Source: Siphonodentalium dalli (taxonomy: Eukaryota > Mollusca > Scaphopoda > Gadilida > Siphonodentaliidae). From it: DNA of 64,000 nt. The notes under the pieces were generated by a model. That model was not told the origin of the DNA, ran no database searches, and saw nothing but the letters and a program-made list of their open reading frames with translations. This document shows, one piece after another, positions 27,523 through 57,331 of the stretch. The translations under genes and the position numbers were made by a program. The number at the start of each line of letters is the position of its first letter. Positions within the stretch are counted from its first letter, which is position 1. The stretch is taken from NCBI GenBank assembly GCA_032622095.1, contig CP136064.1, positions 186,001 to 250,000 on the forward strand, in the 5' to 3' direction.

Positions 27523-28252
27523 GGAACCAGTCTATAGCAGATACCCCTTAAAGTTGGTGACTGTGTTACTTATGTCCCTTTAAGTTGAGATACATCTGTT
27601 CCTTTAAACATACATTTGCATTCCAACATGAAGATATTTATTTTCTGTAGTCATTGTAAATGACAACCCGATTCGGATATGGCCAGATTTGACATGGCGC
27701 GGTAGGGAGAAACATGCGCCCAATTGAAAATATCCAACCGTACTCCACCATGGAACCAGTCTATAGCAGATACCCCTTAAAGTTGGTGACTGTGTTACTT
27801 ATGTCCCTTTAAGTTGAGATACATCTGTTCCTCTAAACATACATTTGCATTCCAACATGAAGATATTTATTTTCTGTAGTCATTGTAAATGACAACCCGA
27901 TTCGGATATGGTTAGATTTGACATGGCGCGGTATGGAGAAACATGCGCCAAGTAGAAAATATCCAACCGTACTCCACCATGGAACCAGTCTAAATCAGAC
28001 ACCTCTTTAAGTTGGTGACTGTGTTACTTATGTCCCTTTAAGTTGAGATACATCTGTTCCTTTAAACATACATTTGCATTCCAACATGAAGATATTTATT
28101 TTCTGCAGTCATTGTAAATGACAACCCGATTCGGATATGGCCAGATTTGACATGGCGCGGTATGGAGAAACATGCGCAAAATTGAAAATATCCAACCGTA
28201 CTCCACCATGTAACCAGTCTATAGCAGATACCCCTTCAAGTTGGTGACGGTG

Positions 28253-35100: not shown

Positions 35101-35344
35101 CCTTTAAGTTGTTGACTGTGTTACTTATGTCCCTTTAAGTTGAGATACATCTGTTCCTTTAAACATACATTTGCATTCCACCATGAAGATATATATTTTC
35201 TGCAGTCATTGTAAATGACAACCCGATTCGGATATGGCCAGATTTGACATGGCGCGGTATGGAGAAACATGCGCCAAATTGAAAATATCCAACCGTACTC
35301 CACCATGGAACCAGTCTATAGCAGATACCCCTTTAAGTTGGTGA

Positions 35345-35802
35345 CTGTGTTGCTTATGTCCCTTTAAGTTGAGAAACATCTGTTCCTTTAAACATACATT
35401 TGCATTCCAACATGAAGATATTTAATTTCTGTAGTCATTGTAAATGACAACCCGATTCGGATATGGCCAGATTTGACATGGCGCGGTATGGAGAAACATG
35501 CGCCAAATAGAAAATATCCAACCGTACTCCACCATGGAACCAGTCTATAGCAGATACCCCTTTAAGTTGGTGACTGTGTTGCTTATGTCCCTTTAAGTTG
35601 AGAAACATCTGTTCCTTTAAACATACATTTGCATTCCAACATGAAGATATTTAATTTCTGTAGTCATTGTAAATGACAACCCGATTCGGATATGGCCAGA
35701 TTTGACATGGCGCGGTATGGAGAAACATGCGCCAAATAGAAAATATCCAACCGTACTCCACCATGGAACCAGTCTATAGCAGATACCCCTTAAAGTTGGT
35801 GA
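35345..35802 (-). repeat. Single-monomer duplication
   Basis: Monomers 35345-35573 and 35574-35802 share three rare variants: GTTGCTTATG, GAGAAACATCTG and TTTAATTTCTG. They look identical by eye. The mirrored location in block 5 (about 58080-58200) has only one such monomer. One copy was therefore gained here, or lost there, after the inverted duplication. Confidence 0.85.
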
Positions 35803-36433
35803 CTGTGTTACTTATGTCCCTTTAAGTTGAGATACATCTGTTCCTCTAAACATACATTTGCATTCCAACATGAAGATATTTATTTTCTGTAGTCATTGTA
35901 AATGACAACCCGATTCGGATATGGCCAGATTTGACATGGCGCGGTATGGAGAAACATGCGCCAAGTAGAAAATATCCAACCGTACTCCACCATGGAACCA
36001 GTCTAAATCAGACACCTCTTTAAGTTGGTGACTGTGTTACTTATGTCCCTTTAAGTTGAGATACATCTGTTCCTTTAAACATACATTTGCATTCCAACAT
36101 GAAGATATTTATTTTCTGCAGTCATTGTAAATGACAACCCGATTCGGATATGGCCAGATTTGACATGGCGCGGTATGGAGAAACATGCGCCAAATTGAAA
36201 ATATCCAACCGTACTCCACCATGGAACCAGTCTATAGCAGATACCCCTTAAAGTTGGTGACTGTGTTACTTATGTCCCTTTAAGTTGAGATACATCTGTT
36301 CCTTTAAACATACATTTGCATTCCACCATGAAGATATATATTTTCTGCAGTCATTGTAAATGACAACCCGATTCGGATAGGGCCAGATTTGACATGGCGC
36401 GGTATGGAGAAACATGCGCCAAATTGAAAATAT

Positions 36434-36509
36434 CCAACCGTACTCCACCATGGAACCAGTCTATAGCAGATACCCCTTTAAGTTGGTGACTGTGTTACTT
36501 ATTGGTTGG
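36434..36509. other. Inversion junction J1 (minus to plus)
   Basis: Minus-oriented satellite runs through TGTGTTACTTAT, ending at 36502. One unassigned T follows at 36503, then plus-oriented satellite starts at GGTTGGATATT (36504). The two directions do not meet symmetrically. CCAACC (36434-36439) and GGTTGG (36504-36509) are the innermost paired bases, leaving a 64-nt single-copy loop between long inverted arms. The loop geometry fits a fold-back or template-switch origin. A chance open frame (36414-36605, plus) spans the join. Confidence 0.93.
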
Positions 36510-37000
36510 ATATTTTCAATTTTGCGCATGTTTCTCCATACCGCGCCATGTCAAATCTGGCCATATCCGAATCGGGTTGTCATTTACAATGACTACAGAA
36601 AATAAATATCTTCATGTTGGAATGCAAATGTATGTTTAAAGGAACAGATGTATCTCAACTTAAAGGAACATAAGTAACACAGTCGCCAACTTAAAGAGGT
36701 GTCTGATTTAGACTGGTTCCATGGTGGAGTACGGTTGGATATTTTCTATTTGGCGCATGTTTCTCCATACCGCGCCATGTCAAATCTGGCCATATCCGAA
36801 TCGGGTTGTCATTTACAATGACTACAGAAAATAAATATCTTCATGTTGGAATGCAAATGTATGTTTAAAGGAACAGATGTATCTCAACTTAAAGGGACAT
36901 AAGTAACACAGTCACCAACTTTAAGGGGTATCTGCTATAGACTGGTTCCATGGTGGAGTACTGTTGGATATTTTCAATTTGGCGCATGTTTCTCCCTACC

Positions 37001-40000
37001 GAGCCATGTCAAATCTGGCCATATCCGAATCGGGTTGTCATTTACAATGACTACAGAAAATAAATATCTTCATGTTGGAATGCAAATGTATGTTTAAAGG
37101 AACAGATGTATCTCAACTTAAAGGGACATAAGTAACACAGTCACCAACTTTAAGGGGTATCTGCTATAGACTGGTTCCATGGTGGAGTACGGTTGGATAT
37201 TTTCAATTTGGCGCATGTTTCTCCATACCGCGCCATGTCAAATCTGGCCATATCCGAATCGGGTTGTCATTTACAATGACTGCAGAAAATATATATCTTC
37301 ATGTTGGAATGCAAATGTATGTTTAAAGGAACAGATGTATCTCAACTTAAAGGAACATAAGTAACACCGTCACCAACTTTAAGGGGTATCTGCTATAGAC
37401 TGGTTACATGGTGGAGTACGGTTGGATATTTTCAATTTGGCGCATGTTTCTCCATACCGCGCCATGTCAAATCTGGCCATATCCGAATCGGGTTGTCATT
37501 TACAATGACTGCAGAAAATATATATCTTCATGGTGGAATGCAAATGAATGTTTAAAGGAACAGATGTATCTCAACTTAAAGGGACATAAGTAACACCGTC
37601 ACCAACTTGAAGGGGTATCTGCTATAGACTGGTTACATGGTGGAGTACGGTTGGATATTTTCAATTTTGCGCATGTTTCTCCATACCGCGCCATGTCAAA
37701 TCTGGCCATATCCGAATCTGGTTGTCATTTACAATGACTGCAGAAAATAAATATCTTCATGTTGGAATGCAAATGTATGTTTAAAGGAACAGATGTATCT
37801 CAACTTAAAGGACATAAGTAACACAGTCACCAACTTAAAGAGGTGTCTGATTTAGAATGGTTCCATGGTGGAGTACGGTTGGATATTTTCTACTTGGCGC
37901 ATGTTTCTCCATACCGCGCCATGTCAAATCTGGCCATATCCGAATCGGGTTGTCATTTACAATGACTGCAGAAAATATATATCTTCATGGTGGAATGCAA
38001 ATGTATGTTTAAAGGAACAGATGTATCTCAACTTAAAGGGACATAAGTAACACAGTCACCAACTTTAAGGGGTATCTGCTATAGACTGGTTCCATGGTGG
38101 AGTACTGTTGGATATTTTCAATTTGGCGCATGTTTCTCCATACCGCGCCATGTCAAATCTGGCCATATCCGAATCGGGTTGTCATTTACAATGACTGCAG
38201 AAAATATATATCTTCATGGTGGAATGCAAATGTATGTTTAAAGGAACAGATGTATCTCAACTTAAAGGGACATAAGTAACACCGTCACCAACTTTAAGGC
38301 GTATCTGCTATAGACTGGTTCCATGGTGGAGTACTGTTGGATATTTTCAATTTGGCGCATGTTTCTCCCTACCGCGTCATGTCAAATCTGGCCATATCCG
38401 AATCGGGTTGTCATTTACAATGACTACAGAAAATAAATATCTTCATGTTGGAATGCAAATGTATGTTTAAAGAAACAGATGTATCTCAACTTAAAGGGAC
38501 ATAAGTAACACAGTCACCAACTTTAAGGGGTATCTGCTATAGACTGGTTCCATGGTGGAGTACTGTTGGATATTTTCAATTTGGCGCATGTTTCTCCCTA
38601 CCGCGCCATGTCAAATCTGGCCATATCCGAATCGGGTTGTCATTTACAATGACTACAGAAAATAAATATCTTCATGTTGGAAAGCAAATGTATCTTTAAA
38701 GGAACAGATGTATCTCAACTTAAAGGGACATAAGTAACACAGTCACCAACTTAAAGGGGTATCTGCTATAGACTGGTTCCATGGTGGAGTACGGTTGGAT
38801 ATTTTCAATTTGGCGTATGTTTCTCCATACCGCGCCATGTCAAATCTGGCCATATCCAAATCGGGTTGTCATTTACAATGACTGCAGAAAATATATATCT
38901 TCATGGTGGAATGCAAATGTATGTTTAAAGGAACAGATGTATCTCAACTTAAAGGGACATAAGTAACACAGTCACCAACTTAAAGGGGTGTCTGATATAG
39001 ACTGGTTCCATGGTGGAGTACGGTTGGATATTTTCAATTTGGCGCATGTTTCTCCATACCGCGTCATGTCAAATCTGGCCCTATCCGAATCGGGTTGTCA
39101 TTTACAATGACTGCAGAAAATATATATCTTCATGGTGGAATGCAAATGTATGTTTAAAGAAACAGATGTATCTCAACTTAAAGGGACATAAGTAACACAG
39201 TCACCAACTTTAAGGGGTATCTGCTATAGACTGGTTCCATGGTGGAGTACGGTTGGATATTTTCAATTTGGCGCTTGTTTCTCCATACCACGCCATGTCA
39301 AATCTGGCCATATCCGAATCGGGTTGTCATTTACAATGACTGCAGAAAATATATATCTTCATGTTGGAATGCAAATGTATGTTTAAAGGAACAGATGTAT
39401 CTCAACTTAAAGGGACATAAGTAACACAGTCACCAACTTTAAGGGGTATCTGCTATAGACTGGTTCCATGGTGGAGTACGGTTGGATATTTTCAATTTGG
39501 CGCATGTTTCTCCATACCGCGCCATGTCAAATCTGGCCATATCCGAATCGGGTTGTCATTTACAATGACTGCAGAAAATATATATCTTCATGTTGGAATG
39601 CAAATGTATGTTTAAAGGAACAGATGTATCTCAACTTAAAGGGACATAAGTAACACCGTCACCAACTTTAAGGGGTATCTGCTATAGACTGGTTACATGG
39701 TGGAGTACGGTTGGATATTTTCAATTTTGCGCATGTTTCTCCATACCGCGCCATGTCAAATCTGGCCATATCCGAATCGGGTTGTCATTTACAATGACTA
39801 CAGAAAATAAATATCTTCATGTTGGAATGCAAATGTATGTTTAAAGGAACAGATGTATCTCAACTTAAAGGAACATAAGTAACACAGTCACCAACTTAAA
39901 GAGGTGTCTGATTTAGACTGGTTCCATGGTGGAGTACGGTTGGATATTTTCTATTTGGCGCATGTTTCTCCATACCGCGCCATGTCAAATCTGGCCATAT

Positions 40001-42672
40001 CCGAATCGGGTTGTCATTTACAATGACTACAGAAAATAAATATCTTCATGTTGGAATGCAAATGTATGTTTAAAGGAACAGATGTATCTCAACTTAAAGG
40101 GACATAAGTAACACAGTCACCAACTTTAAGGGGTATCTGCTATAGACTGGTTCCATGGTGGAGTACGGTTGGATATTTTCTATTTGGCCGTGTTTCTCCA
40201 TACCGCGCCATGTCAAATCTTGCCATATCCGAATCGGGTTGTCATTTACAATGACAACAGAAAATAAATATCTTCATGTTGGAATGCAAATGTATGTTTA
40301 AAGAAACAGATGTATCTCAACTTAAAGGGACATAAGTAACACAGTCACCAACTTTAAGGGGTATCTGCAATAGACTGGTTCCATGGTGGAGTACTGTTGG
40401 ATATTTTCAATTTGGCGCATGTTTCTCCCTACCGCGCCATGTCAAATCAGGCCATATCCGAATCGGGTTGTCATTTACAATGACTACAGAAAATAAATAT
40501 CTTCATGTTGGAATGCAAATGTATGTTTAAAGGAACAGATGTATCTCATCTTAAAGGGACATAAGTAACACAGTCACCAACTTTAAGGGGTATCTGCTAT
40601 AGACTGGTTCCATGGTGGAGTACGGTTGGATATTTTCAATTTGGCGCATGTTTCTCCATACCGCGCCATGTCAAATCTGGCTATACCCGTAATCGGGTTG
40701 TCATTTACAATGACTGCAGAAAATATATATCTTCATGTTGGAATGCAAATGTATGTTTAAAGGAACAGATGTATCTCAACTTAAAGGGACATAATTAACA
40801 CCGTCACCAACTTTAAGGGGTATCTGCTATAGACTGGTTACATGGTGGAGTACGGTTGGATATTTTCAATTTTGCGCATGTTTCTCCATACCGCGCCATG
40901 TCAAATCTGGCCATATCCGAATCGGGTTGTCATTTACAATGACTACAGAAAATAAATATCTTCATGTTGGAATGCAAATGTATGTTTAAAGGAACAGATG
41001 TATCTCAACTTAAAGGGACATAAGTAACACAGTCACCAACTTTAAGGGGTATCTGCTATAGACTGGTTCCATGGTGGAGTACGGTTGGATATTTTCTATT
41101 TGGCGCATGTTTCTCCATACCGCGCCATGTCAAATCTGGCCATATCCGAATCGGGTTGTCATTTACAATGACTACAGAAAATAAATATCTTCATGTTGGA
41201 ATGCAAATGTATGTTTAAAGGAACAGATGTATCTCAACTTAAAGGGACATAAGTAACACAGTCACCAACTTTAAGGGGTATCTGCTATAGACTGGTTCCA
41301 TGGTGGAGTACTGTTGGATATTTTCAATTTGGCGCATGTTTCTCCCTACCGAGCCATGTCAAATCTGGCCATATCCGAATCGGGTTGTCATTTACAATGA
41401 CTACAGAAAATAAATATCTTCATGTTGGAATGCAAATGTATGTTTAAAGGAACAGATGTATCTCAACTTAAAGGGACATAAGTAACACAGTCACCAACTT
41501 TAAGGGGTATCTGCTATAGACTGGTTCCATGGTGGAGTACGGTTGGATATTTTCAATTTGGCGCATGTTTCTCCATACCGCGCCATGTCAAATCTGGCCA
41601 TATCCGAATCGGGTTGTCATTTACAATGACTGCAGAAAATATATATCTTCATGTTGGAATGCAAATGTATGTTTAAAGGAACAGATGTATCTCAACTTAA
41701 AGGGACATAAGTAACACCGTCACCAACTTTAAGGGGTATCTGCTATAGACTGGTTACATGGTGGAGTACGGTTGGATATTTTCAATTTGGCGCATGTTTC
41801 TCCATACCGCGCCATGTCAAATCTGGCCATATCCGAATCGGGTTGTCATTTACAATGACTGCAGAAAATATATATCTTCATGGTGGAATGCAAATGAATG
41901 TTTAAAGGAACAGATGTATCTCAACTTAAAGGGACATAAGTAACACCGTCACCAACTTGAAGGGGTATCTGCTATAGACTGGTTACATGGTGGAGTACGG
42001 TTGGATATTTTCAATTTTGCGCATGTTTCTCCATACCGCGCCATGTCAAATCTGGCCATATCCGAATCGGGTTGTCATTTACAATGACTGCAGAAAATAA
42101 ATATCTTCATGTTGGAATGCAAATGTATGTTTAAAGGAACAGATGTATCTCAACTTAAAGGACATAAGTAACACAGTCACCAACTTAAAGAGGTGTCTGA
42201 TTTAGAATGGTTCCATGGTGGAGTACGGTTGGATATTTTCTACTTGGCGCATGTTTCTCCATACCGCGCCATGTCAAATCTGGCCATATCCGAATCGGGT
42301 TGTCATTTACAATGACTGCAGAAAATATATATCTTCATGGTGGAATGCAAATGTATGTTTAAAGGAACAGATGTATCTCAACTTAAAGGGACATAAGTAA
42401 CACAGTCACCAACTTTAAGGGGTATCTGCTATAGACTGGTTCCATGGTGGAGTACTGTTGGATATTTTCAATTTGGCGCATGTTTCTCCATACAGCGCCA
42501 TGTCAAATCTGGCCATATCCGAATCGGGTTGTCATTTACAATGACTGCAGAAAATATATATCTTCATGGTGGAATGCAAATGTATGTTTAAAGGAACAGA
42601 TGTATCTCAACTTAAAGGGACATAAGTAACACCGTCACCAACTTTAAGGCGTATCTGCTATAGACTGGTTCC
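37001..42672 (+). repeat. Duplicated segment pair, offset 4350 bp
   Basis: About 37001-38322 is repeated at about 41351-42672. Shared marks are CCCTACCGAGCC, AAATGAATG (near 37540 and 41890), the 1-bp deletion AAAGGACATAAG (near 37808 and 42158), TTTAGAATGG (near 37853 and 42203) and AAGGCGTATC (near 38297 and 42647). The G at 36685 is not shared, so the duplicated part starts after it. The offset is 19 monomers minus 1 bp. After 42672 the second copy skips ahead to the monomer type of 39239, then hits J2. Confidence 0.82.
37270..37272 (+). other. Empty site matching the 3.3-kb insertion
   Basis: The uninterrupted CATTTACAATG here is the inverted paralogue of the point where non-satellite DNA splits a monomer at 53146/56493. 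To one side, 36504-37272 matches 56493-57261. To the other, 37273 onward matches 53143 backward. A continuous copy thus pairs with both flanks of the insertion and shows the pre-insertion state as TGTAAATGAC. Confidence 0.88.
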
Positions 42673-42860
42673 ATGGTGGAGTACGGTTGGATATTTTCAA
42701 TTTGGCGCTTGTTTCTCCATACCACGCCATGTCAAATCTGGCCATATCCGAATCGGGTTGTCATTTACAATGACTGCAGAAAATATATATCTTCATGTTG
42801 GAATGCAAATGTATGTTTAAAGGAACAGATGTATCTCAACTTAAAGGGACATAAGTAACA

Positions 42861-42975
42861 CAGTCACCAACTTTAAGGGGTATCTGCTATAGACAGGTTC
42901 CATGGTGGAGTACGGTTGGATATTTTCAATTTTGCGCATGTTTCTCCATACCGCGCCACTTAAAGTTGGTGACTG
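42861..42975. other. Inversion junction J2 (plus to minus)
   Basis: Plus-oriented satellite ends at CCGCGCCA (42958) and minus-oriented satellite starts at CTTAAAGTTGG (42959), with no extra base. CAGTCACCAACTTTAAG (42861-42877) pairs with the start of the minus arm, leaving an 81-nt asymmetric loop. The monomer types facing each other differ (AAGCGCC/GCGTGG type on the left, GATAGGGCC plus GACATGACGCGG type on the right). The arms were therefore joined out of register and are not a fresh perfect palindrome. Confidence 0.93.
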
Positions 42976-45900
42976 TGTTACTTATGTCCCTTTAAGTTGA
43001 GATACATCTGTTTCTTTAAACATACATTTGCATTCCACCATGAAGATATATATTTTCTGCAGTCATTGTAAATGACAACCCGATTCGGATAGGGCCAGAT
43101 TTGACATGACGCGGTATGGAGAAACATGCGCCAAATTGAAAATATCCAACCGTACTCCACCATGGAACCAGTCTATATCAGACACCCCTTTAAGTTGGTG
43201 ACTGTGTTACTTATGTCCCTTTAAGTTGAGATACATCTGTTCCTTTAAACATACATTTGCATTCCACCATGAAGATATATATTTTCTGCAGTCATTGTAA
43301 ATGACAACCCGATTCGGATATGGCCAGATTTGACATGGCGCGGTATGGAGAAACATGCGCCAAATTGAAAATATCCAACCGTACTCCACCATGGAACCAG
43401 TCTATAGCAGATACCCCTTTAAGTTGGTGACTGTGTTGCTTATGTCCCTTTAAGTTGAGAAACATCTGTTCCTTTAAACATACATTTGCATTCCAACATG
43501 AAGATATTTATTTTCTGTAGTCATTGTAAATGACAACCCGATTCGGATATGGCCAGATTTGACATGGCGCGTTATGGAGAAACATGCGCCAAATTGAAAA
43601 TATCCAACCGTACTCCACCATGGAACCAGTCTATAGCAGATACCCCTTAAAGTTGGTGACTGTGTTACTTATGTCCCTTTAAGTTGAGATACATCTGTTC
43701 CTTTAAACATACATTTGCATTCCAACATGAAGATATTTATTTTCTGTAGTCATTGTAAATGACAACCCGATTCGGATATGGCCAGATTTGACATGGCGCG
43801 GTATGGAGAAACATGCGCCAAATTGAAAATATCCAACAGTACTCCACCATGGAACCAGTCTATAGCAGATACCCCTTAAAGTTGGTGACTGTGTTACTTA
43901 TGTCCCTTTAAGTTGAGATACATCTGTTCCTTTAAACATACATTTGCAGTCCAACATGAAGATATTTAATTTCTGTAGTCATTGTAAATGACAACCCGAT
44001 TCGGATATGGCCAGATTTGACATGGCGCGGTATGGAGAAACATGCGCCAAATAGAAAATATCCAACCGTACTCCACCATGGAACCAGTCTATAGCAGATA
44101 CCCCTTAAAGTTGGTGACTGTGTTACTTATGTCCCTTTAAGTTGAGATACATCTGTTCCTCTAAACATACATTTGCATTCCAACATGAAGATATTTATTT
44201 TCTGTAGTCATTGTAAATGACAACCCGATTCGGATATGGCCAGATTTGACATGGCGCGGTATGGAGAAACATGCGCCAAGTAGAAAATATCCAACCGTAC
44301 TCCACCATGGAACCAGTCTAAATCAGACACCTCTTTAAGTTGGTGACTGTGTTACTTATGTCCCTTTAAGTTGAGATACATCTGTTCCTTTAAACATACA
44401 TTTGCATTCCAACATGAAGATATTTATTTTCTGCAGTCATTGTAAATGACAACCCGATTCGGATATGGCCAGATTTGACATGGCGCGGTATGGAGAAACA
44501 TGCGCCAAATTGAAAATATCCAACCGTACTCCACCATGGAACCAGTCTATAGCAGATACCCCTTAAAGTTGGTGACTGTGTTACTTATGTCCCTTTAAGT
44601 TGAGATACATCTGTTCCTTTAAACATACATTTGCATTCCACCATGAAGATATATATTTTCTGCAGTCATTGTAAATGACAACCCGATTCGGATAGGGCCA
44701 GATTTGACATGGCGCGGTATGGAGAAACATGCGCCAAATTGAAAATATCCAACCGTACTCCACCATGGAACCAGTCTATAGCAGATACCCCTTTAAGTTG
44801 GTGACTGTGTTACTTATGTCCCTTTAAGTTGAGATACATCTGTTCCTTTAAACATACATTTGCATTCCACCATGAAGATATATATTTTCTGCAGTCATTG
44901 TAAATAACAACCCGATTCGGATATGGCCAGATTTGACATGGCGCGGTATGGAGAAACATGCGCCAAATTGAAAATATCCAACCGTACTCCACCATGGAAC
45001 CAGTCTATAGCAGATACCCCTTTAAGTTGGTGACTGTGTTACTTATGTCCCTTTAAGTTGAGATACATCTGTTCCTTTAAAGATACATTTGCTTTCCAAC
45101 ATGAAGATATTTATTTTCTGTAGTCATTGTAAATGACAACCCGATTCGGATATGGCCAGATTTGACATGGCGCGGTATGGAGAAACATGCGCCAAATTGA
45201 AAATATCCAACAGTACTCCACCATGGAACCAGTCTATAGCAGATACCCCTTAAAGTTGGTGACTGTGTTACTTATGTCCCTTTAAGTTGAGATACATCTG
45301 TTTCTTTAAACATACATTTGCATTCCAACATGAAGATATTTATTTTCTGTAGTCATTGTAAATGAGAACCCGATTCGGATATGGCCAGATTTGACATGAC
45401 GCGGTAGGGAGAAACATGCGCCAAATTGAAAATATCCAACAGTACTCCACCATGGAACCAGTCTATAGCAGATACGCCTTAAAGTTGGTGACGGTGTTAC
45501 TTATGTCCCTTTAAGTTGAGATACATCTGTTCCTTTAAACATACATTTGCATTCCACCATGAAGATATATATTTTCTGCAGTCATTGTAAATGACAACCC
45601 GATTCGGATATGGCCAGATTTGACATGGCGCGGTATGGAGAAACATGCGCCAAGTAGAAAATATCCAACCGTACTCCACCATGGAACCAGTCTAAATCAG
45701 ACACCTCTTTAAGTTGGTGACTGTGTTACTTATGTCCCTTTAAGTTGAGATACATCTGTTCCTTTAAACATACATTTGCATTCCAACATGAAGATATTTA
45801 TTTTCTGCAGTCATTGTAAATGACAACCCGATTCGGATATGGCCAGATTTGACATGGCGCGGTATGGAGAAACATGCGCCAAATTGAAAATATCCAACCG

Positions 45901-48900
45901 TACTCCACCATGGAACCAGTCTATAGCAGATACCCCTTAAAGTTGGTGACTGTGTTACTTATGTCCCTTTAAGTTGAGATACATCTGTTCCTTTAAACAT
46001 ACATTTGCATTCCACCATGAAGATATATATTTTCTGCAGTCATTGTAAATGACAACCCGATTCGGATAGGGCCAGATTTGACATGGCGCGGTATGGAGAA
46101 ACATGCGCCAAATTGAAAATATCCAACCGTACTCCACCATGGAACCAGTCTATAGCAGATACCCCTTTAAGTTGGTGACTGTGTTACTTATGTCCCTTTA
46201 AGTTGAGATACATCTGTTCCTTTAAACATACATTTGCATTCCACCATGAAGATATATATTTTCTGCAGTCATTGTAAATGACAACCCGATTCGGATATGG
46301 CCAGATTTGACATGGCGCGGTATGGAGAAACATGCGCCAAATTGAAAATATCCAACCGTACTCCACCATGGAACCAGTCTATAGCAGATACCCCTTTAAG
46401 TTGGTGACTGTGTTACTTATGTCCCTTTAAGTTGAGATACATCTGTTCCTTTAAAGATACATTTGCTTTCCAACATGAAGATATTTATTTTCTGTAGTCA
46501 TTGTAAATGACAACCCGATTCGGATATGGCCAGATTTGACATGGCGCGGTAGGGAGAAACATGCGCCAAATTGAAAATATCCAACAGTACTCCACCATGG
46601 AACCAGTCTATAGCAGATACCCCTTAAAGTTGGTGACTGTGTTACTTATGTCCCTTTAAGTTGAGATACATCTGTTTCTTTAAACATACATTTGCATTCC
46701 AACATGAAGATATTTATTTTCTGTAGTCATTGTAAATGACAACCCGATTCGGATATGGCCAGATTTGACATGACGCGGTAGGGAGAAACATGCGCCAAAT
46801 TGAAAATATCCAACAGTACTCCACCATGGAACCAGTCTATAGCAGATACGCCTTAAAGTTGGTGACGGTGTTACTTATGTCCCTTTAAGTTGAGATACAT
46901 CTGTTCCTTTAAACATACATTTGCATTCCACCATGATGATATATATTTTCTGCAGTCATTGTAAATGACAACCCGATTCGGATATGGCCAGATTTGACAT
47001 GGCGCGGTATGGAGAAACATGCGCAAAATTGAAAATATCCAACCGTACTCCACCATGTAACCAGTCTATAGCAGATACCCCTTCAAGTTGGTGACGGTGT
47101 TACTTATGTCCCTTTAAGTTGAGATACATCTGTTCCTTTAAACATTCATTTGCATTCCACCATGAAGATATATATTTTCTGCAGTCATTGTAAATGACAA
47201 CCCGATTCGGATATGGCCAGATTTGACATGGCGCGGTATGGAGAAACATGCGCCAAATTGAAAATATCCAACCGTACTCCACCATGTAACCAGTCTATAG
47301 CAGATACCCCTTAAAGTTGGTGACGGTGTTACTTATGTCCCTTTAAGTTGAGATACATCTGTTCCTTTAAACATACATTTGCATTCCAACATGAAGATAT
47401 ATATTTTCTGCAGTCATTGTAAATGACAACCCGATTCGGATATGGCCAGATTTGACATGGCGCGGTATGGAGAAACATGCGCCAAATTGAAAATATCCAA
47501 CCGTACTCCACCATGGAACCAGTCTATAGCAGATACCCCTTAAAGTTGGTGACGGTGTTACTTATGTCCCTTTAAGTTGAGATACATCTGTTCCTTTAAA
47601 CATACATTTGCATTCCAACATGAAGATATTTATTTTCTGTAGTCATTGTAAATGACAACCCGATTCGGATATGGCCAGATTTGACATGGCGCGGTATGGA
47701 GAAACATGCGCCAAATTGAAAATATCCAACCGTACTCCACCATGGAACCAGTCTATAGCAGATACCCCTTAAAGTTGGTGACTGTGTTACTTATGTCCCT
47801 TTAAGTTGAGATACATCTGTTCCTTTAAACATACATTTGCATTCCAACATGAAGATATTTATTTTCTGTAGTCATTGTAAATGACAACCCGATTCGGATA
47901 TGGCCAGATTTGACATGGCTCGGTAGGGAGAAACATGCGCCAAATTGAAAATATCCAACAGTACTCCACCATGGAACCAGTCTATAGCAGATACCCCTTA
48001 AAGTTGGTGACTGTGTTACTTATGTCCCTTTAAGTTGAGATACATCTGTTCCTTTAAACATACATTTGCATTCCAACATGAAGATATTTATTTTCTGTAG
48101 TCATTGTAAATGACAACCCGATTCGGATATGGCCAGATTTGACATGGCGCGGTATGGAGAAACATGCGCCAAATAGAAAATATCCAACCGTACTCCACCA
48201 TGGAACCAGTCTAAATCAGACACCTCTTTAAGTTGGTGACTGTGTTACTTATGTTCCTTTAAGTTGAGATACATCTGTTCCTTTAAACATACATTTGCAT
48301 TCCAACATGAAGATATTTATTTTCTGTAGTCATTGTAAATGACAACCCGATTCGGATATGGCCAGATTTGACATGGCGCGGTATGGAGAAACATGCGCAA
48401 AATTGAAAATATCCAACCGTACTCCACCATGTAACCAGTCTATAGCAGATACCCCTTAAAGTTGGTGACGGTGTTAATTATGTCCCTTTAAGTTGAGATA
48501 CATCTGTTCCTTTAAACATACATTTGCATTCCAACATGAAGATATATATTTTCTGCAGTCATTGTAAATGACAACCCGATTCGGATATGGCCAGATTTGA
48601 CATGGCGCGGTATGGAGAAACATGCGCCAAATTGAAAATATCCAACCGTACTCCACCATGGAACCAGTCTATAGCAGATACCCCTTAAAGTTGGTGACTG
48701 TGTTACTTATGTCCCTTTAAGATGAGATACATCTGTTCCTTTAAACATACATTTGCATTCCAACATGAAGATATTTATTTTCTGTAGTCATTGTAAATGA
48801 CAACCCGATTCGGATATGGCCAGATTTGACATGGCGCGGTATGGAGAAACATGCGCCAAATTGAAAATATCCAACAGTACTCCACCATGGAACCAGTCTA

Positions 48901-51900
48901 TTGCAGATACCCCTTAAAGTTGGTGACTGTGTTACTTATGTCCCTTTAAGTTGAGATACATCTGTTTCTTTAAACATACATTTGCATTCCAACATGAAGA
49001 TATTTATTTTCTGTAGTCATTGTAAATGACAACCCGATTCGGATATGGCAAGATTTGACATGGCGCGGTATGGAGAAACACGGCCAAATAGAAAATATCC
49101 AACCGTACTCCACCATGGAACCAGTCTATAGCAGATACCCCTTAAAGTTGGTGACTGTGTTACTTATGTCCCTTTAAGTTGAGATACATCTGTTCCTTTA
49201 AACATACATTTGCATTCCAACATGAAGATATTTATTTTCTGTAGTCATTGTAAATGACAACCCGATTCGGATATGGCCAGATTTGACATGGCGCGGTATG
49301 GAGAAACATGCGCCAAATAGAAAATATCCAACCGTACTCCACCATGGAACCAGTCTAAATCAGACACCTCTTTAAGTTGGTGACTGTGTTACTTATGTTC
49401 CTTTAAGTTGAGATACATCTGTTCCTTTAAACATACATTTGCATTCCAACATGAAGATATTTATTTTCTGTAGTCATTGTAATTGACAACCCGATTTGGA
49501 TATGGCCAGATTTGACATGGCGCGGTATGGAGAAACATGCGCAAAATTGAAAATATCCAACCGTACTCCACCATGTAACCAGTCTATAGCAGATATCCCT
49601 TAAAGTTGGTGACGGTGTTACTTATGTCCCTTTAAGTTGAGATACATCTGTTCCTTTAAACATACATTTGCATTCCAACATGAAGATATATATTTTCTGC
49701 AGTCATTGTAAATGACAACCCGATTCGGATATGGCCAGATTTGACATGGCGCGGTATGGAGAAACATGCGCCAAATTGAAAATATCCAACCGTACTCCAC
49801 CATGGAACCAGTCTATAGCAGATACCCCTTAAAGTTGGTGACTGTGTTACTTATGTCCCTTTAAGTTGAGATACATCTGTTCCTTTAAACATACATTTGC
49901 ATTCCAACATGAAGATATATATTTTCTGCAGTCATTGTAAATGACAACCCGATTCGGATATGGCCAGATTTGACATGGCGTGGTATGGAGAAACAAGCGC
50001 CAAATTGAAAATATCCAACCGTACTCCACCATGGAACCAGTCTATAGCAGATACCCCTTAAAGTTGGTGACTGTGTTACTTATGTCCCTTTAAGTTGAGA
50101 TACATCTGTTTCTTTAAACATACATTTGCATTCCACCATGAAGATATATATTTTCTGCAGTCATTGTAAATGACAACCCGATTCGGATAGGGCCAGATTT
50201 GACATGACGCGGTATGGAGAAACATGCGCCAAATTGAAAATATCCAACCGTACTCCACCATGGAACCAGTCTATATCAGACACCCCTTTAAGTTGGTGAC
50301 TGTGTTACTTATGTCCCTTTAAGTTGAGATACATCTGTTCCTTTAAACATACATTTGCATTCCACCATGAAGATATATATTTTCTGCAGTCATTGTAAAT
50401 GACAACCCGATTTGGATATGGCCAGATTTGACATGGCGCGGTATGGAGAAACATGCGCCAAATTGAAAATATCCAACCGTACTCCACCATGGAACCAGTC
50501 TATAGCAGATACCCCTTTAAGTTGGTGACTGTGTTGCTTATGTCCCTTTAAGTTGAGAAACATCTGTTCCTTTAAACATACATTTGCATTCCAACATGAA
50601 GATATTTAATTTCTGTAGTCATTGTAAATGACAACCCGATTCGGATATGGCCAGATTTGACATGGCGCGGTATGGAGAAACATGCGCCAAATAGAAAATA
50701 TCCAACCGTACTCCACCATGGAACCAGTCTATAGCAGATACCCCTTAAAGTTGGTGACTGTGTTACTTATGTCCCTTTAAGTTGAGATACATCTGTTCCT
50801 CTAAACATACATTTGCATTCCAACATGAAGATATTTATTTTCTGTAGTCATTGTAAATGACAACCCGATTCGGATATGGCCAGATTTGACATGGCGCGGT
50901 ATGGAGAAACATGCGCCAAGTAGAAAATATCCAACCGTACTCCACCATGGAACCAGTCTAAATCAGACACCTCTTTAAGTTGGTGACTGTGTTACTTATG
51001 TCCCTTTAAGTTGAGATACATCTGTTCCTTTAAACATACATTTGCATTCCAACATGAAGATATTTATTTTCTGCAGTCATTGTAAATGACAACCCGATTC
51101 GGATATGGCCAGATTTGACATGGCGCGGTATGGAGAAACATGCGCCAAATTGAAAATATCCAACCGAAATCCACCATGGAACCAGTCTATAGCAGATACC
51201 CCTTAAAGTTGGTGACTGTGTTACTTATGTCCCTTTAAGTTGAGATACATCTGTTCCTTTAAACATACATTTGCATTCCACCATGAAGATATATATTTTC
51301 TGCAGTCATTGTAAATGACAACCCGATTCGGATAGGGCCAGATTTGACATGGCGCGGTATGGAGAAACATGCGCCAAATTGAAAATATCCAACCGTACTC
51401 CACCATGGAACCAGTCTATAGCAGATACCCCTTTAAGTTGGTGACTGTGTTACTTATGTCCCTTTAAGTTGAGATACATCTGTTCCTTTAAACATACATT
51501 TGCATTCCACCATGAAGATATATATTTTCTGCAGTCATTGTAAATGACAACCCGATTCGGATATGGCCAGATTTGACATGGCGCGGTATGGAGAAACATG
51601 CGCCAAATTGAAAATATCCAACCGTACTCCACCATGGAACCAGTCTATAGCAGATACCCCTTTAAGTTGGTGACTGTGTTACTTATGTCCCTTTAAGTTG
51701 AGATACATCTGTTCCTTTAAAGATACATTTGCTTTCCAACATGAAGATATTTATTTTCTGTAGTCATTGTAAATGACAACCCGATTCGGATATGGCCAGA
51801 TTTGACATGGCGCGGTAGGGAGAAACATGCGCCAAATTGAAAATATCCAACAGTACTCCACCATGGAACCAGTCTATAGCAGATACCCCTTAAAGTTGGT

Positions 51901-53146
51901 GACTGTGTTACTTATGTCCCTTTAAGTTGAGATACATCTGTTTCTTTAAACATACATTTGCATTCCAACATGAAGATATTTATTTTCTGTAGTCATTGTA
52001 AATGACAACCCGATTCGGATATGGCCAGATTTGACATGACGCGGGTAGGGAGAAACATGCGCCAAATTGAAAATATCCAACAGTACTCCACCATGGAACC
52101 AGTCTATAGCAGATACGCCTTAAAGTTGGTGACGGTGTTACTTATGTCCCTTTAAGTTGAGATACATCTGTTCCTTTAAACATACATTTGCATTCCACCA
52201 TGAAGATATATATTTTCTGCAGTCATTGTAAATGACAACCCGATTCGGATATGGCCAGATTTGACATGGCGCGGTATGGAGAAACATGCGCCAAATTGAA
52301 AATATCCAACAGTACTCCACCATGGAACCAGTCTATAGCAGATACCCCTTAAAGTTGGTGACTGTGTTACTTATGTCCCTTTAAGTTGAGATACATCTGT
52401 TCCTTTAAACATACATTTGCATTCCACCATGAAGATATATATTTTCTGCAGTCATTGTAAATGACAACCCGATTCGGATATGGCCAGATTTGACATGGCG
52501 CGGTATGGAGAAACATGCGCCAAGTAGAAAATATCCAACCGTACTCCACCATGGAACCATTCTAAATCAGACACCTCTTTAAGTTGGTGACTGTGTTACT
52601 TATGTCCTTTAAGTTGAGATACATCTGTTCCTTTAAACATACATTTGCATTCCAACATGAAGATATTTATTTTCTGCAGTCATTGTAAATGACAACCCGA
52701 TTCGGATATGGCCAGATTTGACATGGCGCGGTATGGAGAAACATGCGCAAAATTGAAAATATCCAACCGTACTCCACCATGTAACCAGTCTATAGCAGAT
52801 ACCCCTTCAAGTTGGTGACGGTGTTACTTATGTCCCTTTAAGTTGAGATACATCTGTTCCTTTAAACATACATTTGCTTCCACCATGAAGATATATATTT
52901 TCTGCAGTCATTGTAAATGACAACCCGATTCGGATATGGCCAGATTTGACATGGCGCGGTATGGAGAAACATGCGCCAAATTGAAAATATCCAACCGTAC
53001 TCCACCATGTAACCAGTCTATAGCAGATACCCCTTAAAGTTGGTGACGGTGTTACTTATGTCCCTTTAAGTTGAGATACATCTGTTCCTTTAAACATACA
53101 TTTGCATTCCAACATGAAGATATATATTTTCTGCAGTCATTGTAAA
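42959..53146 (-). repeat. Satellite array, block 3 (minus orientation)
   Basis: About 44 monomers of the 229-bp satellite. The block starts abruptly at J2 and stops in the middle of a monomer at TCATTGTAAA, where non-satellite DNA begins. It contains a six-monomer (1374-bp) repeat at about 44344-47091. Its distal half, about 47.1-53.1 kb, is the inverted counterpart of block 2. Local marks include an extra G near 52044 (GCGGGTAGGG), a 1-bp deletion near 52878 (TTTGCTTCCACC) and a two-base-shortened ACACGGCCAAAT monomer at 49080. That last variant also occurs in plus orientation near 40187, 59634 and 62610. Confidence 0.97.
44344..47091 (-). repeat. 6-monomer tandem duplication, 1374 bp
   Basis: TTTAAAGATACATTTGCTTTCC occurs with its AGATAC at 45081 and 46455, and GATACGCC near 45473 and 46847, both 1374 bp apart. 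Two adjacent GCATTCCACC monomers precede each (44581/44810 and 45955/46184). A related series occurs a third time near 51221-52137. Confidence 0.8.
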
Positions 53147-53216
53147 CAAGAAAACTAAGATGCATGCATCAGGTCGGCCGTGAACTATCTACCATAGAAT
53201 TGTTGTAGCTATCGAT

Positions 53217-53609
53217 TATACATTTTGAAACACCTGTCTGTATGTATGTATGTATGTATGTATGTGTGTATGCGTGAATGCATGTGTGTATGTGTTATAG
53301 ACTCTAACACTGCTCGAATTTGGTATTTAACGTGTCAACTTGACCTCGCTCATAGGCATGTTTCTGGACCTTGACCGATCCGACTAAAAATTTGTGTGTA
53401 GGACTACTTCGATCCCGGGAGCAATATGGACGGGTCCAATTTCACGTGGGACCATGTTCTCGAACGTGCTGATATAGGCATGTTTCTGGACCAATTGAAC
53501 AATAGTTTGGCCAGACGCTGTATATACTGGGTACTGTCCAGATGGATGCGATCACAAAAAAAATCCCTAACTAGCCCGAACGAAGTCGAGTACATCAGCT
53601 AGTTTAATA
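53217..53609 (+). repeat. Short interspersed repeat, copy 1
   Basis: The copy begins TATACATTTTGAAACACCTG, followed by a TGTA-rich microsatellite. It ends with a CGAACGAAGTCGAG tail (53577-53590), then ATCAGCTAGTTTAATAT. Between these lie GGGAGCAATATGGACGGGTC and two copies of ATAGGCATGTTTCTGGACC (53352-53370 and 53474-53492). The layout is microsatellite head, core, and CGRACGAAGT...AGCTA tail before AT-rich DNA. It resembles widespread short non-autonomous repeats of invertebrate genomes. I recall such tails from RTE-like or Helitron-like families but cannot assign one. Confidence 0.6.
53235..53295 (+). repeat. TGTA/TGTG microsatellite
   Basis: Six or so TGTA units are followed by interrupted TGTG/TGCG/TGAA units to about 53295. 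It sits at the head of the interspersed repeat copy, where copy 2 has TGTC units (53626-53643). Confidence 0.9.
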
Positions 53610-54114
53610 TATATTTTGGACATTTGTCTGTCTGTTTGTCTGTTAGCTATGGCCGGGAAAACTGCCGGACAGATTTGACGAAATTTGATACCTAGGGGAA
53701 ATTATTTCCAGGGAGTATTTTGGACGGGTCAAATCTTGATCCCGACCTGACTTTGACATTCAAAAAGATCAATTCAAGGTCAAATCTGGTAAAACGGAAG
53801 TATTTTAACGAAATTTGATACCTACTGTTACTTTTGTCCCAGGAGTGTTTCGGGTGGGTCAAATCATGACCCTGACCTGATCTTGACATTCAAAATTGTC
53901 AATTCAAGGTCAAATCGGGTATAAAGCCGGGCGGATTTCGACGGGTACTTTTGTCGTGACTTTTGTCCAGGGAGTGTTTTGGACGGGTCAAATCGTGACC
54001 CCGACATGACCTTCACCTTTAAAATAGTCAATTCAAGGTTAAATCGCGCATTTCTCCGAAAATCAGAGGGGAACATCCCGGACGAAGTGGGGTCCACGAG
54101 CTACTATTATATAT
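53610..54114 (+). repeat. Short interspersed repeat, copy 2, with ~130-bp internal repeats
   Basis: The copy starts TATATTTTGGACATTTGTC, then a TGTC-type microsatellite, then ACAGATTTGACGAAATTTG (53669-53687). It ends with CCGGACGAAGTGGGGTCC (54078-54095) and AGCTACTATTATATA. Inside, a unit holding GGGAGTGTTTTGGACGGGTC, CTGACCTTGACATTCAAAA and GTCAATTCAAGGTCAAATC occurs three times; GGGTCAAATC lies at 53726, 53856 and 53985, a spacing of about 130 bp. Minus-strand frames through it (53692-53889, 53864-54097) only restate this repeat and are not genes. Copy 2 follows copy 1 head to tail. Confidence 0.65.
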
Positions 54115-54120
54115 TTCTAG

Positions 54121-54139
54121 ATTTAGTTACAAACTAAAT
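54121..54139. other. Perfect 8-bp hairpin
   Basis: ATTTAGTT (54121-54128) and AACTAAAT (54132-54139) flank a 3-nt ACA loop, just after the tail of interspersed repeat copy 2. No poly-T follows and the host is eukaryotic, so it is not called a terminator. It may be a boundary feature of a repeat or chance in AT-rich DNA. Confidence 0.6.
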
Positions 54140-54284
54140 ACATGTATATTGTACAAAGAAATGTTTGACAAATATATCTGTATCAATATTACCATACGGG
54201 TCATTAAAATAGATACGACGAAACAAATTTTGAAGGGTGCATGTATCAGGTAAATTTTTATATTTCAAATGATGACAGGAATGC

Positions 54285-54562
54285 AGAAAGTTGAAGTACC
54301 TACGTAATACTGGCTATCCGCATGAAGAGATATACATGTATATAAAAACCAGATGAGGGATATGTCTGTACAGTTGCTAAACAATTCAGTCATGCAAAAG
54401 AGGATCAAAGAGTAAGATACCAAATTGCTGCCTGTGGTAATGTTTTTTAACGAAATTCGGGAAAATTAGATTACTCTCACCCTGGTTATCCAGAAGATAA
54501 TTGTGGAATCTGATGACGATCGGACAAGGGTGTCGTCTGTAGGATCAACCAAATTATTTAGC
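54285..54562 (+). repeat. Divergent repeat Z, copy 1
   Basis: This aligns loosely, by eye, with 55340-55545. Shared order is GTAATACTGGCTATCCGCATGA versus GTAATACTAGATATCGACATGA as short blocks, then GGTAATGTTTTTTAACGAAATT versus GACCATTTTTTCCTATGAAATT, ACTCTCA versus GCTCTCA, TGATGACGATCGGA versus GGTGATGATCGGAT, and a final TTTAG. The level of identity suggests an old interspersed family. No coding content was recognised. Confidence 0.45.
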
Positions 54563-54582
54563 CATAAAAATAGTAAAATTGA

Positions 54583-54843
54583 AGATCACCGCTGGCAGTG
54601 ATGTCTTCACAAGGACAGTTTGAGAACAAAATATGGCTCACATCTAGCGGTGACCCAAAATATCCACATAAGAAAAAGTTCTCCAATAAAAGCTGGCTGC
54701 AGGGTGCGCCAATTGATTCAAATTCGAAATTTAGCAGGGTGTACTGCTTGTGGCCATGTTTTCCCCGCAAATTTGATAGACTGATGGACAAAACCACTGA
54801 ATCCGTTGAATCAATATACATGTATACATGGATTAATTTATAA
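54583..54843 (+). pseudogene. Possible decayed transposase zinc-finger fragment (weak)
   Basis: An open frame runs from after the TGA at 54580-54582 to a TAA at 54841-54843. An ATG lies at 54601. Residues read ...KKFSNKSWLQGAP... followed about 15 residues later by VYCLWPCF. An SW-L/P-aromatic-C-x-C-F layout recalls the TTF-type zinc finger at the start of some hAT/ZMYM-like transposases, but the cysteine spacing is off by one and nothing downstream supports it. The frame overlaps an equally long antisense one (54558-54857), so chance is a serious alternative. It would be a remnant at best. Confidence 0.15.
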
Positions 54844-55339
54844 GCATTGTTATACACAGTACTGGTATATAAAGGTACTGAAAATAACTATATTACTAGT
54901 ATACACAAAATAAACCATATATCATGGCTATGGGTTCTAATATCCGAACATGACAGCTGAGAACTTGGTGTGAATTAAAGAGTGGTGGTTTCTCAAGCAT
55001 ATCTAACCCTCCACGTTAGATACATGCCATTAAATGTCATAAGTATAATCTAGCTTGAGGACAGAAGTGATCCATAAAACCCCCCTTAATTCAACCAGGT
55101 CCTCGCGCGATGTATGATCGATCACATGATGATCTAGGGGGATTAGAATTGATGTATAAAAACAGCACTGCATGTAAATATAAAATAAAATAGTGCTACA
55201 TCTTATTACAGATTATTGCCATATATAATCAGTGATTATACAGACAGTCTGACAAAATAAAGTTTCAGTGACACTCTATCCGAAGAGGGGAATAATTTCA
55301 TCTGTTACAGTCAATGGAGCAATTATGAATCTGGAAAGG
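54844..55339. other. AT-rich non-satellite stretch without a recognised gene
   Basis: I see no open frame of note, no tRNA-like cloverleaf and no repeat shared with the rest of the window. It contains ATGATCGATCACATGATGATC (about 55111-55131), a locally self-complementary run, and AATAAA hexamers (for example near 55187 and 55256). These are uninformative without transcript data. Confidence 0.6.
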
Positions 55340-55545
55340 TGAAATTTCTAAGTAATACTAGATATCGACATGACGCGATAAAATATAACGTAAATGCAAT
55401 ATGGCCGCTGGCGACCATTTTTTCCTATGAAATTAAAAAAAAAAAAATAGCTCTCATCTGATAGATCAATATCAAGATAAATATGAAGTTTGGTGATGAT
55501 CGGATGAGTGAAGTGGACTGTGGTCTGTGCTAAACGGTTTAGTAT
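55340..55545 (+). repeat. Divergent repeat Z, copy 2
   Basis: Second copy of the element at 54285-54562, in the same orientation, shorter and interrupted by a 13-base A run at 55435-55447. It ends in AAACGGTTTAG just before a 65-bp direct repeat begins. Confidence 0.45.
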
Positions 55546-55777
55546 GTATTGAGTTTGATATCTTTTGTTAACAGTTTATAAATCATGTATGTCTCATGTT
55601 TGTTATTTTAATTTATGTGTTTATTATCATTAAATAAAGTTGCATTCCTTAAAAAGATTCTTACCTCAATGTTTTTATGTTCACTTTATAAACTCCACTG
55701 AGTCATCTTTGTCATGTATTGAATTTGATATCTTTTGTTAACAGTTTATAAATTATGTATGTCTCGTGTTCGTTATT
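55543..55777 (+). repeat. 65-bp direct repeat, offset 170 bp
   Basis: Copies at 55543-55607 and 55713-55777 share TTTGATATCTTTTGTTAACAG and TTTATAAAT-ATGTATGTCTC as short identical runs, with about five or six substitutions. Between them lies an ATTAAATAAAG hexamer context (about 55631). The pair could be a tandemly duplicated repeat end or a former 3' region. No coding sequence is attached. Confidence 0.75.
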
Positions 55778-56477
55778 ATATTATATACACTTTATAGTGT
55801 GTTTTCAGAACGAAAAAAAATTGAATAAAATCAACAAATTTGTAAATTTAAAAACAATTCAAACGTTGTTGTATTCCATGTCCCAGCCCGGACATATACA
55901 CCAAATTTCAATAATATTCATTGAGAAACAACGGACCAAACGCTATATAACACCCGTATACATCTTTTATTCCGAATCGGACTCGGGTACATGTTATAGT
56001 AGGTACCGAATTGACACACGTCGACTGGGCGAGTTGGCCATGGGGCGATTAGGCCGATTCCGGCACATTCTATAATTTACCGTATGTATCCGTTTACGCG
56101 TAGTTTACTTTAGAAAGTTCCGCAATTAATACCGTAAATAGAGCGACCTTATTTGACAGAGAATGCCTCTGTTATTGATTATCAAGTTGCTGTACATTAA
56201 AAACGACAAATTCACATGCTCGTTCAAGCGCAGTAGTCTATTTTCCCCATGTTAAAGGACATCCACAAATACTAAATAACGCTAACCTACTGCGCCGAAT
56301 GTTTGACACGACAACTGTTAACATATTTGGGCTGAATTCATCTAACGCGGTATTATTCCTCAAAATAAACAACAAAACCATCGTTACTTGGAAATGTAGT
56401 TTGGGCTAACATTTACATAAATCCTCCAGATCAATTATCCGACACACACGTCAGATGAAAAAGTCACATGAAGTAAC
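55778..56477. other. Non-satellite stretch, no gene recognised
   Basis: A plus-strand frame at 55755-56075 (106 codons) begins inside the direct repeat, is low in complexity and looks like nothing known, so I do not call it. Positions 56026-56040 and 56041-56056 hold two adjacent similar units, TGGGCGAGTTGGCCA and TGGGGCGATTAGGCCG. This style of short repeat is familiar from mollusc DNA. The rest shows nothing I can identify. Confidence 0.55.
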
Positions 56478-56492
56478 CGGCCAAATTGGCCG
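56478..56492. other. 15-nt palindrome at the right edge of the insertion
   Basis: CGGCCAA and TTGGCCG are perfect 7-bp arms around one A, ending exactly where satellite sequence resumes. A terminal hairpin is a feature of some rolling-circle (Helitron/Helentron) elements, but the expected short 3' tail after the hairpin is absent. This is therefore only suggestive. Confidence 0.6.
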
Positions 56493-57261
56493 AAATGACA
56501 ACCCGATTCGGATATGGCCAGATTTGACATGGCGCGGTATGGAGAAACATGCGCCAAATTGAAAATATCCAACCGTACTCCACCATGGAACCAGTCTATA
56601 GCAGATACCCCTTAAAGTTGGTGACTGTGTTACTTATGTCCCTTTAAGTTGAGATACATCTGTTCCTTTAAACATACATTTGCATTCCAACATGAAGATA
56701 TTTATTTTCTGTAGTCATTGTAAATGACAACCCGATTCGGATATGGCCAGATTTGACATGGCTCGGTAGGGAGAAACATGCGCCAAATTGAAAATATCCA
56801 ACAGTACTCCACCATGGAACCAGTCTATAGCAGATACCCCTTAAAGTTGGTGACTGTGTTACTTATGTCCCTTTAAGTTGAGATACATCTGTTCCTTTAA
56901 ACATACATTTGCATTCCAACATGAAGATATTTATTTTCTGTAGTCATTGTAAATGACAACCCGATTCGGATATGGCCAGATTTGACATGGCGCGGTATGG
57001 AGAAACATGCGCCAAATAGAAAATATCCAACCGTACTCCACCATGGAACCAGTCTAAATCAGACACCTCTTTAAGTTGGCGACTGTGTTACTTATGTTCC
57101 TTTAAGTTGAGATACATCTGTTCCTTTAAACATACATTTGCATTCCAACATGAAGATATTTATTTTCTGTAGTCATTGTAAATGACAACCCGATTCGGAT
57201 ATGGCCAGATTTGACATGGCGCGGTATGGAGAAACATGCGCAAAATTGAAAATATCCAACC
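56493..57261 (-). repeat. Satellite array, block 4 (minus orientation, short)
   Basis: This is 769 bp, about 3.4 monomers, resuming at AAATGACAACCC in exactly the phase where block 3 stopped. It matches the reverse complement of 36504-37272 under the rule that paired positions sum to 93765. The private variants GGCTCGG (56760-56766, partner near 37001) and the C at 57080 (partner G at 36685) are both shared. It ends at J3. Confidence 0.97.
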
Positions 57262-57331
57262 AATAAGTAACACAGTCACCAACTTAAAGGGGTATCTGCT
57301 ATAGACTGGTTCCATGGTGGAGTACGGTTGG
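57256..57331. other. Inversion junction J3, reverse-complement copy of J1
   Basis: Minus-oriented satellite ends at CCAACC (57261). One A (57262) is unassigned, then plus-oriented ATAAGTAACACAG starts. This is the exact reverse complement of J1, including the extra base and the 64-nt loop (57262-57325). Paired positions with J1 sum to 93765 across several hundred bases on both sides. The same spurious 63-codon frame spans it (57160-57351, minus). Confidence 0.93.

Follow-up and report, generated by a model that had tools for sequence, protein, structure and literature searches.

An inversion junction present twice, in mirror image, in a 229-bp satellite array of Siphonodentalium dalli

The DNA analysed here is a 64,000-nucleotide stretch of the genome of the scaphopod Siphonodentalium dalli (C4:186001-250000, where C4 is contig CP136064.1), referred to as the window, which consists of a 229-bp satellite throughout, except for one insert. 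Two orientation switches of the satellite within it, J1 and J3, are one and the same junction in mirror image, and a third switch, J2, lies between them. The four arms that these junctions delimit are named P1 to P4 from left to right; P1 and P2 flank J1 and form the left copy, and P3 and P4 flank J3 and form the right copy (Table 1). The window is part of a satellite array near one end of the chromosome-scale contig C4, in a 2.23-Gb genome of 9 contigs; the array begins at base 1 of the contig, and the satellite matches listed in it extend to C4:612256. The sequence read comprised C4:1-260000, together with short loci and 4 kb elsewhere in the array, and coordinates without a contig prefix are those of the window. 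Across C4:1-260000, the 1,097 monomers differ from one another at a mean of 7.52 positions per pair (3.28%), which is the satellite background to which we refer below.

Sequence comparisons confirmed the initial annotation in that J1 and J3 are exact reverse complements, with positions summing to 93765, and in that they have in common a non-satellite base (T36503 / A57262) and a 64-nt offset. Genome-wide (2.23 Gb), the 32-base word across the junction has one forward and one reverse match, and a control word has none. Since this exact identity is accompanied by an extended mirror that scores far above null comparisons, J1 and J3 share one origin, within a larger inverted duplication. Three variant pairs that had been cited in support (G36685/C57080, CGAGCC at 37002/56763 and G36380/C57385) are present as described, but they are not private to the two junction regions: in 260 kb, the 13-base context of G36380 has 55 copies, the 12-base context of G36685 has 4 and the CGAGCC variant has 7, counted over both strands. 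The 64-nt asymmetric loop that was proposed at the junction turned out to be only a phase offset modulo the monomer. A tight 64-nt fold-back at J1 was rejected accordingly, as the arms in that register differ by 5-12 positions per 229 bp in 13 steps, which is background, so there is no 64-nt hairpin.

The exact ungapped mirror around the junction measures 1,763 bp (35510-37272 and 56493-58255). Among the 230 inverted exact matches in C4:1-260000 that reach 450 bp, none is longer, and the second longest measures 1,090 bp. The wider alignment suggested initially, of 34400-37272 with 56493-59100, holds to the right of 35510; to the left of it, ungapped differences are at satellite background, and a monomer-by-monomer comparison showed that whole-monomer shifts are needed there for the mirror to resume. 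The right-hand end, at 56493, coincides with the edge of a dispersed element of 3,346 bp inserted in P3. With this insert and one AAA removed, the mirror is exact to 37353 (1,844 bp), and a single substitution (37354/53062) is found up to 37538. The ungapped mirror was rejected as a measure of the full extent, as it loses track at the first whole-monomer indel.

Local alignment of monomers instead yields a gapped chain that starts at 32285/65142, finishes at 41574/47470 and comprises 39 monomer pairs; it spans 32.3-41.8 kb against 47.5-65.4 kb and covers about 10 kb of satellite around J1. Its four successive gaps amount to 1, 17, 1 and 5 monomers, the third being on the left and the others on the right. 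The chain contains 38 differences in 8,931 bp, that is 0.43% against the 3.28% background, and scores 84, where random inverted comparisons of the same size reach at most 26.1 (n=40, blocks starting past 20000 left out) and 38.8 (n=200, comparisons with both sides reaching past window position 28000 left out). Within it, P1 and P4 are joined by 17 monomer pairs with 14 differences (0.36%), and P2 and P3 by 22 pairs with 24 differences (0.48%). The outer end of P1 shows 0 mismatches to P4 over 32356-32984 and background further left. Because P3 lacks two monomers opposite the tail of P2, this tail is traced best against P4, up to 42684 and with 2 mismatches over 41700-42684.

J3 is in addition the centre of palindromic arms of its own. 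Its arms, 43348-51133 in P3 and 57359-68346 in P4, form 33 monomer pairs that differ on average at 1.06 positions per 229 bp and score 64.8. Over the first 1,638 bp from the breakpoint, the right arm has 6 mismatches to its plus-strand partner, which ends at 51457, so that J3 has the layout of a fold-back with spacer, namely arms in register at an offset around an unpaired spacer. At the J1/J3 breakpoint there is no short inverted homology, and one base is inserted. Two further candidate partners for the right arm were rejected: the first, which ends at 44817, agrees perfectly over 868 bp and is at background thereafter (29 mismatches in 1,638 bp), and the second, which ends at 51228, has 55 mismatches in 1,638 bp. 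The earlier description of a palindrome nested inside a palindrome is borne out by the mirror around J1 and the 33 pairs of J3, and the fold-back evidence comes from J3, not from J1.

Table 1. Features of the mirrored satellite region, in window coordinates
Feature	Coordinates	Strand	Description
P1	32356..36502	+	left arm of left copy, satellite; inverted copy of P4
Left half of exact ungapped mirror	35510..37272	.	exact inverted match, 1,763 bp
J1	36503..36503	+	switch from + (consensus position 96) to - (position 33), with a T added and without microhomology
P2	36504..42684	-	right arm of left copy, satellite; inverted copy of P3
Last 274 bp before J2	42685..42958	-	satellite background against P4; 12 mismatches over 42685-42948
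J2	42958..42959	.	blunt switch from - (consensus position 218) to + (position 70); link between the two halves
P3	42959..57261	+	left arm of right copy, satellite, holds inserted element; mirror of P2, fold-back partner of P4
J3 spacer (fold-back loop)	51458..57261	+	2,455 bp with inserted element left out
Dispersed element in P3	53147..56492	.	3,346 bp, absent from P2, AAA on both sides
Right half of exact ungapped mirror	56493..58255	.	exact inverted match, 1,763 bp
J3	57262..57262	-	reverse complement of J1, same extra base
P4	57263..64000	-	right arm of right copy; extends outside the window, as far as about 68575 (C4:254575)
First unit of exact 2,976-bp tandem duplication in P4	58229..61204	-	second unit from 61205

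The two copies do not form a symmetric 20.8-kb palindrome about a midpoint at 46,882, as had been assumed. The halves meet at J2 (about 43.0 kb), which is present once in the genome, and their lengths are unequal, owing to the inserted element and to gains and losses of monomers. The outer boundary of the left copy, near 32356, keeps the orientation of the array.

The dispersed element interrupts one satellite monomer. The best 40 of 3,807 first-look candidates were scored, and, counting that of the window itself, 37 of the 42 listed matches span the full 3,346 bases; the listed matches lie on all 9 contigs. The longest open reading frame listed for the element has 106 amino acids, and the element ends in a short inverted repeat, CCGGCCAAATTGGCCG. 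An AAA follows on its right in 4 of the 6 copies fetched, which are the 4 with located ends and include that of the window, and this AAA may belong to the element rather than to a target duplication. P2 contains no insert at the matching place, and the insertion is therefore most simply placed after the inverted copying. The tandem duplication in P4 (exact direct match of 58229-61319 with 61205-64295, 3,091 bp; the unit is 13 monomers less one base) is likewise most simply later than the mirror. The duplication has 0 differences over these 3,091 bp and would be either very recent or an effect of assembly.

A fold-back junction that formed first and was then copied within a larger inverted duplication, as the initial annotation proposed, is supported by the mirror of about 10 kb at 0.43% and by the palindromic arms of J3. 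As J1 and J3 are identical, the junction existed before its own copy, which is a matter of logic rather than of dating. The further expectation that the order of events could be read from the variants did not stand. In ten four-way monomer comparisons, one informative site groups P1 with P4 and P2 with P3, none groups P1 with P2 and P3 with P4, and one groups P1 with P3 and P2 with P4 (1:0:1), a star-like pattern. For these quartets, some partners were chosen by hand (47241 or 47470; 61022 or 63998), 1 of 11 rows was dropped where P2 lacks the monomer, and insertions with respect to the consensus did not enter the site counts. Differences between arms are likewise similar (0.36% for P1-P4, 0.48% for P2-P3, 0.46% for P3-P4, 0.64% for P1-P3 and 0.57% for P2-P4). 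Because the arm differences are alike and the quartets uninformative, fold-back and copying were either too close in time to separate or a single compound event.

The direction of copying is addressed by the sequence beyond the mirror. The homology between P3 and P4 runs past the end of the mirror (12 pairs, score 17.4), with 50 of 2,000 random blocks scoring as well, and the outer flank of P1 does not match there (score 5.0; 1,653 of 2,000 random blocks as good); this null distribution, in which the locus itself was left, has a mean of 8.1 and a maximum of 48.0. Private changes in the ten quartets number 7 in P1, 9 in P2, 0 in P3 and 5 in P4. The homology past the mirror and the absence of private changes in P3 weakly favour the right copy as the source.

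The shared junction, the extended mirror, the palindromic arms of J3 and the single J2 are probably explained by one fold-back at J3, followed by inverted-template copying through J3 that was closed by end joining at J2. A fold-back would have formed J3 when plus-strand array, read up to 57261, was continued by an inverted copy of itself running leftwards from 51457, with one extra base, no microhomology and a spacer of 2.46 kb (in today's lengths, the element excluded). Some 10 kb around J3 would then have been copied in inverted orientation to the left, giving P1 from P4, J1 from J3 and P2 from P3. The left end of this copy would have joined the plus-strand array in the same orientation, without an orientation switch, and its right end would have been closed by a blunt non-homologous join, J2. 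Later, arm monomers would have been gained or lost (chain steps of 1, 17, 1 and 5), 13 monomers duplicated in P4, and the dispersed element would have entered P3. We infer template-switching replication as the means, the right copy as the source, and the order of these later events.

Several observations weigh against this explanation. About 3.6 kb of P3 beside J2 have no collinear counterpart in P2. The right arm of J3 matches 43950-44817 exactly for 868 bp from the breakpoint, which is better at first than the partner ending at 51457, with its mismatches at offsets 288 and 290. The arms of J1 itself reach a score of 17.0, with 7 pairs in a different register, and the comparison of P1 with outer P2 scores 14.0, both values lying inside the null; P2 also lacks five monomers that P3 has at the arm start. 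As P1 is short and these monomers are missing from P2, the result for the J1 arms is weak evidence either way. Substitutions do not demonstrate the sisterhood of P1 with P4 and of P2 with P3, and the quartets place P1 nearer to P3 (8 differences) than to P4 (13). Finally, the test of direction is weak, as its 50 of 2,000 come from a null that reached 48.0 and was not purged of the locus.

The left copy could conversely have been the source, if a second fold-back at J2 had copied P2, J1 and P1 backwards into P3, J3 and P4, amounting to two fold-back rounds as in breakage-fusion-bridge cycles or snap-back replication. J2 lies between the halves, as expected of a second fold-back axis, and the mirror crosses J1/J3; however, a simple fold-back leaves unmatched sequence on one side only, and here the unmatched 3.6 kb of P3 lie right beside J2. 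The P3-P4 homology past the mirror, the lack of private changes in P3 and the null-level arms of J1 also point away from this order of events, which we regard as rather unlikely. An assembly artefact, in which a palindromic unitig was walked twice in opposite directions, would account for the perfect match of the two junction regions. Assembly of satellite arrays is difficult, the layout is known from the assembly alone, and C4 begins inside the array, with none of three telomere-type repeats checked (TTTAGGG, TTAGGG and TTAGG) found in C4:1-260000. However, two passes over one unitig would presumably agree perfectly for at least a read length. The exact stretch extends over only 1.8 kb; beyond it, scattered substitutions, 1-bp indels, differences of whole monomers and the element of 3.35 kb set the halves apart, which makes an artefact quite improbable.

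Local gene conversion of about 2 kb, which moved the junction into an existing orientation switch, fits the exact ungapped tract of 1.76-1.84 kb, nearly centred on J1, and the observation that another duplicated switch of the array, Ja/Ja', shares only about 0.5 kb exactly. Such a conversion would leave background outside the tract, where the chain of 39 pairs continues at 0.43%; it is largely refuted by the chain and very improbable. Two independent inversions with the same breakpoints might be entertained in view of the frequency of orientation switches, 9 in 260 kb. Yet the 7 distinct switches differ in phase, and J1 and J3 agree in both phases and in the extra base and are exact mirror images over 1.8 kb; this possibility, which the initial annotation had also judged unlikely, is already refuted.

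The left copy is a palindrome, and its two ends fall close to one array coordinate: in P4 coordinates, P1 ends at 65299 and P2 at 65108, 191 bp apart. By rough arithmetic, twice 191 bp over the 8.1-kb arm 43348-51457, such a coincidence is expected by chance about 1 in 20 times, and it was noticed post hoc. Were it not due to chance, the copied unit might have been a folded hairpin, its stem strands ending together, which was replicated and inserted into the array, a proposal that we consider doubtful. If true, hairpin-capped intermediates would be a way for satellite arrays to gain and multiply inversions.

The 9 orientation switches in C4:1-260000 belong to the 7 distinct kinds and split the array into kilobase inverted subarrays. 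Ja occurs twice in the same orientation, at C4:150171 and C4:181966 (window -35829 and -4034), 31.8 kb apart, and a long direct chain through this pair was not found. A third duplicated switch, also direct, lies at C4:477446 and C4:502329, 24.9 kb apart, with 1,975 identities in 1,983 aligned bases (8 mismatches) between C4:476501-478500 (L035) and C4:501401-503400 (L036). Overlaps of 3-5 bp are present at 5 of the 7 distinct switches but not at J1 or J2; the chance expectation on the consensus is 6% (binomial 1.4e-5). These overlaps were measured against the consensus and may be off by one base. At the other 6 switch positions a fold-back was not demonstrable, with arm scores of 7.0 to 19.4 that do not exceed the n=40 and n=200 nulls, which use larger blocks. 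No junction counted was amplified to many copies, the J1/J3 word and Ja having 2 copies each and J2 having 1.

Further features were noted in and around the array. At C4:28000-65000, long exact direct repeats of up to 8,851 bp, spaced by 2,519 bp (11 monomers), are a young higher-order structure. A second stretch inside the array, C4:110267-112675 (about 2.4 kb), is without recognised satellite monomers. The same 229-bp satellite is also found at C4:296297784-296300991, near the opposite end of the 299-Mb contig; the satellite matches listed are all on C4, which does not by itself exclude other contigs. A literature search for satellites of 229 bp gave one paper (PMC9026859, Spodoptera frugiperda).

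With units that hardly differ from one another, satellites obscure their own history. A unique junction serves as a natural barcode that records the copied segment, the orientation of the copy and the extent to which monomer turnover has since obscured it. The J1/J3 barcode shows an inverted copying step, and those at C4:150171/181966 and C4:477446/502329 show direct ones. Such junctions make the growth of an array by copying of segments testable junction by junction.

The arrangement resembles several known systems. Fold-back inverted duplications with a disomic spacer (Hermetz et al. 2014, PMC3907307) have spacers of 766-70,466 bp (median 3,428 bp, 21 sequenced junctions) and inserted sequence at 5 of the 21 junctions. 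They share with J3 an inverted copy beside the original and an uncopied spacer, here of 2,455 bp, with an insertion of one base in the present case. In contrast, they are large duplications beside terminal deletions in human patients, whereas the present locus is interstitial, lies in satellite DNA and had its junction copied again. In Tribolium madens, satellite macro-dyad symmetries, with inversion sites confirmed on raw HiFi reads, likewise consist of kilobase inverted subarrays with a recurring inversion site (PMC13081366). That site recurs in thousands of near-identical instances (2,044 and 3,486 sequences, two types), while J1/J3 has two copies on one contig.

In DUP-TRP/INV-DUP rearrangements (PMC4352052), Jct1 is driven by homology and Jct2 arises by microhomology, blunt joining or end joining. 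The left copy would similarly have one in-orientation boundary and one non-homologous join, J2 corresponding to Jct2. The homologous junction there lies between inverted low-copy repeats, whereas the copied segment here holds an older junction. The hairpin model of ODIRA (PMC10766183), an origin-dependent switch at short inverted repeats, also produces inverted units from template switches, which re-enter the chromosome by homologous recombination. J1 and J2, for their part, are without microhomology. The part consulted of a mouse telomere-to-telomere (T2T) paper (PMC12597820) has no bearing on satellite switches. A nested, mirrored satellite junction was not met in the literature searched, which is no proof of its absence from print. 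Taken together, the locus looks like a small, well-marked case that combines fold-back spacers with recurring satellite inversion sites, and appears to reflect known kinds of copying accident rather than a new one.

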